Below are positions 2,143 through 6,669 of a stretch of 24,552 nt of DNA, one piece after another. The stretch lies in the IMG/VR virus record IMGVR_UViG_3300044736_000010, positions 1-24,552 of that record, one strand, 5' to 3'. Origin of the DNA: a virus. The translations under genes and the position numbers were made by a program. The number at the start of each line of letters is the position of its first letter. The first letter of the stretch is position 1. The notes beneath the pieces are model-generated. The model searched no databases. It was not told where the DNA came from and saw only the letters and a program-made list of their open reading frames with translations.

Positions 2143-2349
2143 ATGCTCGACCAGCCCGAGTACCTGACCACGAAGGAACTCGCGAAGCTCACACGAGCCA
2201 CCGAGGCCACCGTCAGATATTGGCGTCATATGCAGACAGGGCCGACCGGATTCTCCTGCGGCCGTCGCGTCCTCTACGCCCGCACCGTCGTGGAGCAGTG
2301 GCTCCGCGACCTGCAGACCGCCCCAGATGCAGTGAAGCGATCAGCCTGA
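2143..2349 (+). CDS. xis: Excisionase-like MerR-type HTH protein
   Basis: This 68-residue protein has one winged-helix/MerR-like DNA-binding domain: YLTTKELAKLTRATEATVRYW for the helix-turn-helix, then FSCGRRVLYARTVVEQWLRDL for the wing and final helix. Proteins of this size and pattern (HTH_17/excisionase families) act as recombination directionality factors or small regulators. It is the first gene after the rightward promoter, divergent from the repressor-integrase pair, which suits Xis or Cro-like function. ATG 2143 is preferred over a TTG at 2128 because GGAAGGGG (2130-2137) is correctly spaced from the ATG and because 2128 lies inside the operator palindrome. The xis symbol rests on position and fold; no direct evidence separates Xis from a regulator. 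Confidence 0.75.
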   Translation: MLDQPEYLTTKELAKLTRATEATVRYWRHMQTGPTGFSCGRRVLYARTVVEQWLRDLQTAPDAVKRSA

Positions 2350-2852: not shown

Positions 2853-3277
2853 AAGCGGACGACGCCGGCACCTGGATCCGGCTACACGACCAGATGCCCG
2901 ACCACCCGAAGATCGGCGGCCTCAGCGACAGAGGCTTCCGACTACTCATCACCACCTGGTGCTGGTGCTCCCAACACCTAACCGACGGTCACGTCCCCGC
3001 AAAAATTTGGAGCAAACGGAGCACCCCCGCTGCGCGCCGAGAACTCGCGGAAGCGGGCCTCGTTGAAGACGCCCCCGACGGGGGTGTGTGGATGCACGAC
3101 TACCTCCACTGGCAGCGCAGCAAAGCGGAGGCCGCAGACGGCACCGAGAAGAAGAGAGCCGCAGGTCAGCGGGGCGCTCACGCCCGCTGGCACGGCCCCG
3201 CCGGGGGCTTCGACCCGGCCTGCCCACTGTGCCAGCGGGGAGCGAATGTGACCGACCTGCGACCCCGGAGCGGATAG
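2849..3277 (+). CDS. Replication-protein-like / winged-helix phage protein
   Basis: This 142-residue protein begins with a pattern I associate with phage replication initiators and related winged-helix proteins: WIRLHDQMPDHPKIGGLSD, then GFRLLITTWCWCSQHLTDGH, then ELAEAGLVEDAPDGGVWMHD and YLHWQRSKAE. The middle is basic (EKKRAAGQRGAHARWH), typical of DNA contact, and a CPLC motif lies near the end. The GTG start overlaps the preceding TGA. It is short for a full initiator: it lacks a DnaA-, helicase- or Rep-type domain, and family members I recall often carry a long variable C-terminal tail. After its stop the -1 frame stays open to 3459, so the tail may have been lost by frameshift. Function is inferred from the N-terminal pattern only. 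Confidence 0.7.
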   Translation: MKADDAGTWIRLHDQMPDHPKIGGLSDRGFRLLITTWCWCSQHLTDGHVPAKIWSKRSTPAARRELAEAGLVEDAPDGGVWMHDYLHWQRSKAEAADGTEKKRAAGQRGAHARWHGPAGGFDPACPLCQRGANVTDLRPRSG

Positions 3278-3544: not shown

Positions 3545-3769
3545 ATGACAGGCTCTGCCACCAGCTTCGACACCCTCTCGGGCACCATCCGGGCAGTATT
3601 CGACCTCTCCGTATCCAAGGCCGAACTAGAAGCCTCCGTCCAGTGCGCCGAGCTGGACCTGCACAGGCTCCAAGCCGGTATCGCTGATGCGAAGCGGGAC
3701 CTCGCCGCCGCGGACCGTCAGATCCGCCGACTCAACGAAGGGAGCGCCCCTCATGGCCAGGTCGCGTAA
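3545..3769 (+). CDS. Small coiled-coil protein, unknown function
   Basis: This 74-residue soluble protein has a strongly helical middle (about 22-66) with heptad-like leucines and alternating charges: SKAELEASVQCAELDLHRLQ then AGIADAKRDLAAADRQIRRL. That predicts a coiled coil, likely an oligomerisation or partner-binding element. I do not recognise the family. It opens a run of six genes that overlap one another down to 6601, so it may be transcribed with the glycosylation cassette. AAGAAG upstream can serve as ribosome site. Confidence 0.7.
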   Translation: MTGSATSFDTLSGTIRAVFDLSVSKAELEASVQCAELDLHRLQAGIADAKRDLAAADRQIRRLNEGSAPHGQVA

Positions 3770-3968
3770 CGGCGCTAGCCGCAGCCGCCACGGGGTGAGC
3801 TACGGCGGCCGAGATATCGGCCCCTGCACCGTCGAAGGTTGCGGCGGGCAGCGGCGCGTCGCCTTCACCGACGACGGCCCCGTGGTTGCGTGCTCTCGGT
3901 GCGCTTACCGAGGCGCAGTCGACTGGCTGAAAATTCACGCCGAAATGACCAGGATGGAAGCAGCGTGA
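3753..3968 (+). CDS. Small zinc-ribbon protein
   Basis: This 71-residue protein has a basic N-terminus (MARSRNGASRSRHG) followed by a four-cysteine zinc-ribbon pattern: C-x4-C in PCTVEGCGG and C-x2-C in ACSRCAYRG, about 18 residues apart. Such modules bind nucleic acid or protein; no specific function can be assigned. ATG 3753 is chosen because GAAGGGAG (3738-3745) sits at proper distance and because upstream in-frame sequence overlaps the previous gene more deeply. It overlaps the preceding gene by 17 bases and the following glycosyltransferase by 4 bases. Confidence 0.75.
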   Translation: MARSRNGASRSRHGVSYGGRDIGPCTVEGCGGQRRVAFTDDGPVVACSRCAYRGAVDWLKIHAEMTRMEAA

Positions 3969-4942
3969 CCCGGATCTTCTTCTGGGCCGCCGACGAGGGA
4001 GGGTGCTGCTACTACCGGTGCACCCTCCCCGCCGGGGCCCTCGCCGACCGTGGCCACGGCACCCTCGTCGCCACGGTGATGCCTGACGAGTGGATGGACG
4101 CGGACGTCATCGTCGGCCAGCGGGTCTGCCAGCCCGGGTCAACCACCCGCTGGCAGCAGCTCGCCCGGGAAGGGAACTCCGCCCTGGTCTACGAAGTCGA
4201 CGACGACCTTCTCGACGTCGACCCCTCCAACGGCCCCGCCTGGAGCTTCTTCGGCCGCCCTGAGATCCGAGCCAACGTCATCCGCAACATCGAGGTAGCG
4301 GACCTCGTCACCGTCACCACCGAGCCCCTCGCGGAACGGATGCGACACTGGAACTCGAACGTCGCAATCCTCCCGAATTGCATCCCAGCGTCCCTACTCG
4401 ACGCCCCCCACTGCGCCGGCCCCAAGGGCGTCACCATCGGCTGGTCCGGGGGCGTCTCGCACCAACTGGACCTCGCGGAGGCCCACCCGGCGGTCCGTCA
4501 GTTCTTGCGCCGATACCCCGACGTCGGCCTGCACGTTATGGGCGCGGCCGGGCCCGACTTCCACCGAGGACTCCCGGCGGAGCGGGTTCGCATCACCGGC
4601 TGGATCGAATCCGTCACCGCGTTCCACCAGGCCGTGGACTTCGACATTGCCCTCGCTCCACTGCGCCCGTCCCGATTCAACCGGTCGAAGAGTGCGATCC
4701 GGTGTCTCGAAGCGGCCGCCCTCGGAATCCCAGTCGTCGCCTCGGACTTCGGCCCCTACGCCGAGTTCGTGGAGCACGGGGACACCGGGTTGCTGGTCCG
4801 CCAACCCCACGAGTGGGGCCGTCACCTGCGTGCGCTCCTCGACCCCTGGGTACGGCGAGAGATGGGCGCGAGGGCTCGCACGTTAGCCGCGCGACACACG
4901 ATCGAAGGCAACGTCGAGCTGTGGGAGAAGGCGCTGACCTGA
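3965..4942 (+). CDS. Glycosyltransferase, GT-B fold (GT4-like)
   Basis: This 325-residue protein has two Rossmann-like halves as in GT-B enzymes. The N-terminal half holds VYEVDDDLLDVDPSN (about 75-89) and VADLVTVTTEPLAERM (111-126). The C-terminal nucleotide-sugar domain begins near GVTIGWSGGVSHQLDL (155-170) and contains FNRSKSAIRCLEAAALG (238-254), followed by IPVVASDFGPYAEFV and GDTGLLV, the GT4-type donor-binding motif. It should transfer a sugar from an activated donor to an unknown acceptor. The GTG start overlaps the upstream TGA, and its own stop overlaps the next ATG by one base, so it is translated as part of the cassette. No membrane segment is visible, so it is cytoplasmic. Donor and acceptor cannot be read from sequence. 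Confidence 0.9.
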   Translation: MTRIFFWAADEGGCCYYRCTLPAGALADRGHGTLVATVMPDEWMDADVIVGQRVCQPGSTTRWQQLAREGNSALVYEVDDDLLDVDPSNGPAWSFFGRPEIRANVIRNIEVADLVTVTTEPLAERMRHWNSNVAILPNCIPASLLDAPHCAGPKGVTIGWSGGVSHQLDLAEAHPAVRQFLRRYPDVGLHVMGAAGPDFHRGLPAERVRITGWIESVTAFHQAVDFDIALAPLRPSRFNRSKSAIRCLEAAALGIPVVASDFGPYAEFVEHGDTGLLVRQPHEWGRHLRALLDPWVRREMGARARTLAARHTIEGNVELWEKALT

Positions 4943-5373
4943 TGATCGTCTACACCGGGGGGACTTTCGACCTATTCCACGCTGGGCATGCTTACCTGCT
5001 CGGCCAGTGCCGCAAGCTCGCCGGGCCGGATGGCAAGGTCGTCGTGGCGCTGAACACCTGCGCGTTTGTGGCCGCTTACAAAGGCAAGTCGCCGGTCAAC
5101 CTCTATAGCGAGCGGGAGGACGTGCTGCGGGCCTGCCGGTACGTCGACGAAGTGATCCGCAACGCCTACGGCGCCGACAGCAAACCAACCATCGAAGCCG
5201 TCCGACCCGACGTCATCGCCATCGGCATCGACTGGGCGGGCAAGGACTACTACGCGCAAATGCAGTTCACACAGCAGTGGCTCGACGACCGAGGTATCTC
5301 GCTGGTCTACCTGCCGCACCCCCGGCCGCTGTCCACATCCGAGATCAAAAACCGGATCCTGGAGACCACGTGA
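4942..5373 (+). CDS. Cytidylyltransferase-like nucleotidyltransferase (TagD type)
   Basis: This 143-residue single-domain enzyme has the nucleotidyltransferase signature GTFDLFHAGH (residues 7-16, with the HxGH catalytic motif), RYVDEV (66-71), IGIDWAGK (94-101, matching the GDDWEGK region of glycerol-3-phosphate cytidylyltransferases) and STSEIKNRI (131-139, the ISTT-type motif). Length matches TagD (about 130 residues). The family makes CDP-glycerol or a similar NDP-activated group from CTP or ATP and a phosphorylated small molecule. TagD-like, RfaE-like and FAD-synthetase-like enzymes share these motifs; the motif set favours TagD. It sits between glycosyltransferases with 1- and 4-base overlaps, which suggests that it supplies an activated precursor to them. 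Substrate is inference. Confidence 0.88.
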   Translation: MIVYTGGTFDLFHAGHAYLLGQCRKLAGPDGKVVVALNTCAFVAAYKGKSPVNLYSEREDVLRACRYVDEVIRNAYGADSKPTIEAVRPDVIAIGIDWAGKDYYAQMQFTQQWLDDRGISLVYLPHPRPLSTSEIKNRILETT

Positions 5374-6023
5374 ACACCTGGGTACTGATCCCCTGCCACC
5401 GACCCCGACTGGACGACCTCCGGGCGTCACTGTCGCACCTGAACCACCCAGCGGACCGAACCGTCATCGTCACCACCCAGCCCGACCCGATCCGCCACAC
5501 CGACACCGCAGCCACAGTGCTGCAGTACCAGCACACCGACATCAACATCAGCCGCTGGTGGAACATCGGCCTGAACTGGATCGAGCAGCACCACGAGCTC
5601 GGCCCCTACGAAGTCCTGTGCATGGAATCCGACGTCCGCATCGAATGGTCCACCCTGTCGCGGCTCCGGTCCGTGCTCCGCAGCTACAACCTCGGGATGG
5701 TCGGCGCCGACTGGTACGGCGTCGCCACCAGCGCGGTCGAGACCCGCTACAACCTCGACCCCGAAACCATCGAGCACCGCATCCCCGGTGTCTGCATGCT
5801 CGTCGCCGGCGAACTCGGAATCCGCTTCGACGAGCAGTTCCGCTGGTGGTACGCCGACGACGACTTCGAGTGGCAGCACCGCAAAGCGATGGGCACCGGC
5901 CTGGTGCGCGGCACGACGATCGAGCACGGCCCCGGACGGCCCCTCACCGGGGAGCGCGCCGACTACGCCGGAGTGGACCGGCAACGGTTCGTCGCCAAGT
6001 GGGGGAGCCCGAACATCCGATGA
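5370..6023 (+). CDS. Glycosyltransferase-like protein, GT-A type
   Basis: This 217-residue cytoplasmic protein starts like a GT-A domain (TWVLIPCHRPRLDDLRASLS, then TVIVTTQPDP). An ISRWWNIGLNW segment (60-70) is followed by VLCMESDVRI (82-91), with ESD in the place of the metal-binding DxD, and by IPGVCMLVAGELGIRFDE and FRWWYADDDFEWQHRKAMG (157-175). Those parts resemble the acceptor region of phage and bacterial family 2-like transferases. It is shorter than standard GT2 enzymes and the DxD is not canonical, so activity is less certain than for its neighbours. The GTG start overlaps the nucleotidyltransferase TGA, and the stop overlaps the next ATG (ATGA). Confidence 0.8.
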   Translation: MNTWVLIPCHRPRLDDLRASLSHLNHPADRTVIVTTQPDPIRHTDTAATVLQYQHTDINISRWWNIGLNWIEQHHELGPYEVLCMESDVRIEWSTLSRLRSVLRSYNLGMVGADWYGVATSAVETRYNLDPETIEHRIPGVCMLVAGELGIRFDEQFRWWYADDDFEWQHRKAMGTGLVRGTTIEHGPGRPLTGERADYAGVDRQRFVAKWGSPNIR

Positions 6024-6601
6024 GCAGTGACATCACGGTGGTCATCGCCACCATCCCGATCCGAGCCAAGATGCTGCGGAAGGCCCTCGCCTCAGTGGTC
6101 CTTCAGACCCACCAGCCAGCGGCCATCGTGGTGGAGTACGACCACGAGCACACCGGGGCCGCAGCGACCAAGAACCGGGGTCTAGCCCGGGTCACCTCGG
6201 ATTGGGTGGCGTTCCTCGACGACGACGACCAGTTCATGCCCGAGCACCTGGAGAAGCTCCACGAAGCGCAGCTCGACTCCGGCGCCGACGTGGTCTACAG
6301 CATGCCGTTCATCCCGCAAATCCCCGGCGGCATCGATCCGTCCGGGATGCGGGGCGCCCCGTTCGACCCCGACGAGCTACGGCGACGGTCCTTCATTCAG
6401 ACAACGTCCCTGGTGCGCTCGAAGCTGATCCAGTCCACGGGCGGCTTCCAGCTGCCACAGCACGTCCAGTCCGACTATGACGATTGGGGTGCGTGGCTTG
6501 CGCTGCTAGACGCGGGCGCGACGTTCCACCACCTACCGGAGCAGACGTTCATCTGGGAGCACCACGGCCGGAACACGTCGGGACGGCCGGACCGCTGGTA
6601 A
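6020..6601 (+). CDS. Family 2 glycosyltransferase
   Basis: This 193-residue protein has a clear GT2 opening, ITVVIATIPIRAKMLRKALA, then SVVLQTHQPAAIVVEYD, then AAATKNRGLARVTSDWVAFL leading to DDDD at 67-70 (the DxD metal and donor site). Further on, SDYDDWGAWLALLDAG (151-166) fits the catalytic-base region, and FIWEHHGRNTS follows. It should use a metal-bound nucleotide-sugar. It closes the overlapped cassette. It is shorter than many GT2 enzymes but retains the core domain. No membrane segment is seen. Acceptor is unknown; virion protein, DNA modification or cell-wall polymer are all possible. Confidence 0.9.
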   Translation: MSSDITVVIATIPIRAKMLRKALASVVLQTHQPAAIVVEYDHEHTGAAATKNRGLARVTSDWVAFLDDDDQFMPEHLEKLHEAQLDSGADVVYSMPFIPQIPGGIDPSGMRGAPFDPDELRRRSFIQTTSLVRSKLIQSTGGFQLPQHVQSDYDDWGAWLALLDAGATFHHLPEQTFIWEHHGRNTSGRPDRW

Positions 6602-6637: not shown

Positions 6638-6669
6638 CGGGGCCGAGCGGTCTAGCTGCTCGAACCCCG
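6638..6669 (-). terminator. Leftward intrinsic terminator of the mini membrane gene
   Basis: CGGGG (6638-6642) pairs with CCCCG (6665-6669), and GAGC (6645-6648) with GCTC (6658-6661). On the minus strand the stem is followed by TTTCTATTT (complement of 6629-6637); the plus strand has no such tract. It lies 18 bases beyond the stop of the minus-strand gene 6688-6789 and before the convergent glycosyltransferase end. Confidence 0.6.

Follow-up and report, generated by a model that had tools for sequence, protein, structure and literature searches.

Virion glycosylation has been reported for a few mycobacteriophages, in which capsid and tail-tube proteins are described as glycosylated in two articles (PMC12363180 and PMC12619734, citing Freeman 2023). 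For mycobacteriophage Che8, PMC12363180, reporting Freeman 2023, lists glycosylated virion proteins and names gp110 as an essential capsid glycosyltransferase. The Che8 genes 108, 109 and 110 are three glycosyltransferase genes with 4-nt overlaps, and gp108 carries a putative C-terminal methyltransferase-like domain. Glycans on the particle can influence immune recognition, stability and attachment.

The locus analyzed here lies in a 24,552-base IMG/VR virus record of a soil phage, the whole stretch of which is referred to as the window. Similar to Che8, the window represents an actinophage with a multi-gene, overlapping glycosyltransferase cassette, and thus has the phage-encoded gene arrangement that marks Che8-type virion glycosylation; unlike the Che8 108–110 run, which is without a nucleotidyltransferase, the window cassette includes one. 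At the protein level, the GT2 domain of Che8 gp108 was weakly similar to the window GT2 protein (23% identity; E 4e-7 when four proteins were compared), while the window GT4 and TagD-like proteins had no detectable homology to the products of Che8 108–110, and none of the window proteins had a significant match to gp110.

Further, three more groups of actinophages carry comparable genes. In the Arthrobacter phages Mimi, Racecar, Talia1610 and Atuin, with genomes of about 190 kb, a GT4, a GT2, another glycosyltransferase and a nucleotidyl transferase (51–53% identical to the window enzyme) are found within about 5 kb, not all contiguous and near RNA ligase and PNK genes, and no homologue of the window GT-A protein was found in these four phages. 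The Streptomyces phages of the Samisti12 group (about 130 kb) have two glycosyltransferase genes followed by a nucleotidyltransferase gene with overlapping ends; their nucleotidyltransferase is 55% identical to that of the window, while their glycosyltransferases are not close homologues. Zukovirus (Streptomyces phages Zuko and KimJongPhill) encodes homologues of the window GT4 (37–39%), GT-A (31%) and GT2 (34%) proteins, with methyltransferases and a UDP-glucose dehydrogenase in place of the TagD-like enzyme. The GT4 gene of KimJongPhill is directly upstream of TerS–TerL–portal, and in Zukovirus, unlike in the window, GT4 and the GT-A/GT2 pair are at opposite genome ends.

The first-pass annotation had stated that known actinophages carry single glycosyltransferases. 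This is contradicted by the three overlapping genes of Che8, as well as by the Mimi/Atuin and Samisti12 phages, which pair several glycosyltransferases with a nucleotidyltransferase of the same family as that of the window. The kind of system is therefore already known, and its nucleotidyltransferase and a conserved capsid-side slot make the window cassette a variant of it, for which no description was found in the literature searched.

Cassette layout and enzyme families

The cassette consists of four plus-strand genes, encoding a GT4-type glycosyltransferase (P0001; 3965–4942, GTG start, 325 aa), a TagD-like nucleotidyltransferase of the cytidylyltransferase superfamily (P0002; 4942–5373, ATG start, 143 aa), a GT-A fold glycosyltransferase without Pfam match (P0003; 5370–6023, GTG start, 217 aa) and a GT2-family glycosyltransferase (P0004; 6020–6601, ATG start, 193 aa). 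Successive genes overlap by 1, 4 and 4 nt, in agreement with the four open reading frames and 1–4 nt overlaps originally annotated. The four-gene run itself stands, while its start does not, as the overlap chain already begins at 3545, upstream of GT4, through two small plus-strand ORFs found in the sequence. In detail, the ORF at 3545–3769 overlaps a Cys-rich (zinc-ribbon-like) ORF at 3753–3968, which in turn overlaps the GT4 gene by 4 nt and is probably its operon partner.

P0001 was assigned as GT4-type by its match to PF13692 (57 bits, cut-off 27), and also matched PF00534 (36.5 bits, cut-off 26.4) and the glycosyltransferase PHROG 7162 (2.3e-59). P0004 matched PF00535 (GT2) with 51.4 bits (cut-off 23.3) and carries DDDD and YDDW motifs, and its AlphaFold2 model (pLDDT 88.5) adopts a GT-A fold with Foldseek matches to TarP, RmlT and AvpGT; the family match above cut-off, together with a GT-A fold with DxD, places it in GT2. 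P0003 had no match in the Pfam, PHROG or NCBIfam libraries, and its profile had none among the PDB sequences. Its AlphaFold2 model (pLDDT 92.5, pTM 0.91) has a GT-A fold, for which Foldseek returned 376 PDB matches at E ≤ 0.001, with GT-A enzymes at the top and TarS, RmlT, AvpGT and GnT-I among them. The ESD and WWYADDD motifs of P0003 are conserved, and D88 and D165 are invariant among 19 sequences (alignment A4), so that the modeled fold, the acidic motif and the catalytic acidic residue predict a GT-A glycosyltransferase. The Foldseek check proposed in the first-pass annotation, run on the P0003 and P0004 models, thus indicated a GT-A fold for both.

P0002 matched PF01467 CTP_transf_like (58.1 bits, cut-off 21) and has its HxGH motif as HAGH, of which H13, G15 and H16 are invariant (alignment A2), indicating a member of the cytidylyltransferase-like superfamily. 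Compared with structures, it matched TagD (1coz, E 6e-13) and PCYT2 (E 3.6e-16), and RTEGIST of the TagD structure 1coz aligns with HPRPLST in P0002. Two specific assignments were rejected at the equivalog cut-offs, namely TagD glycerol-3-phosphate cytidylyltransferase (TIGR01518, 68.6 vs. 165.4 bits) and the HldE/RfaE domain II heptose-1-phosphate adenylyltransferase (TIGR02199, 62.2 vs. 181.5 bits). Accordingly, of the complete decoration pathway proposed at first, the glycosylation cassette was borne out by family matches, folds and conserved order, while "complete" was overstated because P0002 fell below both cut-offs. No gene for donor-sugar synthesis, priming or export was recognized beside the cassette.

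The four-gene order is shared by no fewer than five further viral contigs (L007, L008, L009, L011 and L012), and the NG86 dN/dS values relative to the window were 0.06–0.51 for every cassette gene. The cassette is under purifying selection and, given this constraint on each gene and the same order in other contigs, is not a chance assembly. Among the three closest relatives (L007, L008 and L012), the tightest constraint was on the GT2 and TagD-like genes (omega 0.06–0.19), and a weaker one on GT4 and GT-A (omega 0.19–0.36).

The best fold matches of both P0003 and P0004 are wall-teichoic-acid transferases (TarS, TarP and RmlT), with moderate TM-scores, and TagD makes CDP-glycerol for teichoic acid. 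By its integrase and repressor-like genes, the window phage is also classed as temperate. These features fit a modification of the host surface, by which a wall polymer, teichoic acid or another wall glycan, would be decorated and superinfection blocked or receptors changed. We consider this explanation unlikely. A PF01943 flippase was absent from the window and from 19 related records, no match to a TagF-type glycerophosphotransferase was obtained, and hydropathy analysis indicated that P0001–P0004 are all soluble, without membrane segments; of the traits of gtr-type lysogenic conversion, neither a flippase of the PF01943 family nor, among the four proteins, a membrane-bound transferase was thus seen. 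AvpGT, one of the solved structures closest to P0003 and P0004, was determined with the nucleoside Ara-A, and the Arthrobacter phages have their module near RNA-repair genes, as might be expected if a small molecule (such as a product used in defence or counter-defence), a lipid or another target were glycosylated, or if the cassette were cargo without a virion role. The repeated head-operon placement described below makes such a target very improbable.

Regulatory surroundings in the window

A tyrosine integrase gene and an HTH repressor-like gene occupy 140–2006 on the minus strand. Between the repressor-like gene and the rightward HTH_17 gene, an operator/promoter-like region at 2052–2125 contains 22-nt inverted arms, 95% complementary, that flank a sigma70-like TTGACA-17-TAGAGT match. 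The 20-mer arm of this repeat had 0 matches in 100 shuffles, and from its sequence the region looks like a phage operator. The rightward operon begins with the excisionase-like HTH_17 gene (2143–2349, plus strand; PF12728, 31.3 bits, cut-off 27). The early region also contains, on the minus strand (2390–2421), a 13-pair hairpin that resembles a terminator and has a T-rich tail behind it.

A replication-initiation-like gene ends at 3277 and is followed by the cassette, 3′ of which lie TerS (7064), TerL (7626), portal, scaffold, major head, tape-measure and tail genes. The placement between early and late genes noted at first pass was therefore confirmed, with integrase/repressor and replication-initiation-like genes on the left and TerS/TerL on the right. 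The window cassette seems to close the early (replication-side) operon, which the repressor would keep off during lysogeny. As the repressor-facing operator region precedes it, the cassette is probably not expressed in the lysogen, which further argues against host-surface modification. A possible but weak terminator hairpin follows the cassette on the plus strand (6638–6669, 13 pairs, no T-run); as a terminator it was rejected, being no better than shuffles (z −1.3 for a 61-nt stretch and 0.12 for a 119-nt stretch).

A position at the end of the early operon would be compatible with DNA hypermodification, in which modified phage bases are glycosylated to block restriction, and Shewanella phage Thanatos is described as glycosylating its DNA with a phage sugar-activating enzyme (PMC12838424). 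This target appears very unlikely for the window cassette: among records of which several, the window included, are incomplete, neither the window nor any of 19 related records had a thymidylate synthase/hydroxymethylase (PF00303), and a Tet/JBP dioxygenase was found in 1 of 25 records and in none of the window and G001–G004. Moreover, the capsid-side placement of related modules would not be expected for DNA-modification genes.

Glycosyltransferase genes beside capsid genes

In G004 (L009), homologues of all four window cassette genes are located within the head operon, in the order portal, MuF, GT4, TagD, GT-A, GT2, scaffold-like and major head protein. With P0002 as the seed, for which at least 584 matches exist, 80 IMG/VR viral loci were among the matches listed. 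Of these 80 listed loci, 71 had a glycosyltransferase within 3 kb, and in 63 of the 71 a gene for a head protein, a connector or a tail terminator also lay no more than 5 kb away. The usual order in the listed loci was protease, major capsid protein (MCP), GT4, GT-A, TagD-like, head-tail adaptor, tail terminator and major tail protein.

As selection on TagD was to be avoided, a second set of loci was gathered through the capsid protein of the second phage lineage, which has this gene order, regardless of glycosylation; the lineage sampled by the two seeds is largely one related group. The MCP-seeded set contained 41 complete capsid-to-connector slots, which, the loci being related, are not 41 independent events; at least one glycosyltransferase was present in 37 of them and a TagD-like gene in 20, while 4 of the 41 were empty, with a capsid-to-connector gap of 42–91 bp. 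The slots in L221, L254, L276, L290, L239 and others held differing glycosyltransferase combinations, such as GT4 alone, GT-A alone, or a GT4 with a GT2 resembling that of the window. At the level of gene content, this variation between capsid and connector suggests an exchange of glycan types. The capsid protein showed no clear difference between filled and empty slots, no C-terminal extension of the capsid or tail-tube tied to the cassette was seen, and no acceptor site for a glycan was identified.

Pontimonas phage phiPsal1 has the order MCP, GT, MTase, GT2 and connector. In this phage and related metagenomic phages, a glycosyltransferase set lies between the major capsid and gp6-type connector genes, often with a TagD-like enzyme, while the phiPsal1 slot itself lacks a TagD-like gene and includes a methyltransferase; the glycosyltransferase sequence families differ from those of the window. 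In S-CBS4, the order is portal, GT, GT and MTase. That homologous modules lie within the late head operons of other phages, and that the module also occurs in phiPsal1, described as lytic without integration, again argues against host-surface modification.

Because related sets in many phages adjoin shell-protein genes, the sugars are most likely put on the virus particle, and we regard as the best and a probable reading of the cassette that a virion protein is glycosylated and that the phage itself supplies the donor precursor. The first-pass annotation had left virion, host polymer and DNA open as targets; the placement favors the virion and disfavors DNA, with the host polymer as the main rival. 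How the enzymes act and in which order, with which donor, on which target and to what advantage, is proposed as follows. The cassette would be a mobile accessory module, acting in the cytoplasm to glycosylate a phage structural protein (capsid or tail). The TagD-like enzyme would join a nucleotide to a phosphorylated compound (a sugar, polyol or alcohol), and so produce a donor that is absent or scarce in the host, from which GT2, GT-A and GT4 would assemble a short glycan on the virion protein step by step, with shielding, stability or attachment as examples of a possible benefit.

More tentatively, there may be a widespread and exchangeable capsid-glycan locus with a fixed head-operon slot, in which the activated donor is made by a dedicated family of nucleotidyltransferases separate from TagD and HldE, the particle glycan thus not being limited to host-activated sugars; we hold this wider proposal to be possible, yet somewhat doubtful. 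If the modules do glycosylate virions, the trait would be common in environmental phages and have a recognizable slot beside the capsid gene. The donor-activation step would then be part of the module, a simple marker in the genome would point to glycosylated virions, and cultivable phages would be at hand for testing virion glycosylation.

Mobility of the cassette and its possible host

The structural module of the window is shared with G001, G002 and G003, with capsid proteins 79–86% identical. In these three, the cassette faces the end of the tail module in convergent orientation instead of lying upstream of TerS, and no cassette was found upstream of TerS in other capsid-protein relatives, such as L141. 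On account of these differences in location, the cassette is accessory and has moved. The early-operon position in the window and the convergent one in G001–G003 also mean that co-expression with the capsid is not general, so that timing and target are what we infer. G001 and G003 (L133–L136) have, from the N-terminal sequence, an apparent serine-recombinase-type integrase, and the window has a tyrosine integrase. In G003, an FtsK/SpoIIIE-like gene adjoins the cassette.

No host prophage with the full cassette was found in the genome contigs searched, which contained a lone GT-A copy only. These lone P0003 orthologues, 70–77% identical, adjoin a gltX-like gene at the same chromosomal place in four Pseudonocardiales MAGs (L094:10001–10654, L095:1899–2552, L096:2077–2730 and L097:5211–5864), and their occurrence there hints at a Pseudonocardiales host for the window phage. 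The MAG orthologues are under purifying selection (omega 0.20–0.31) and have a changed WWYADDD motif, and are possibly a domesticated phage-type enzyme.
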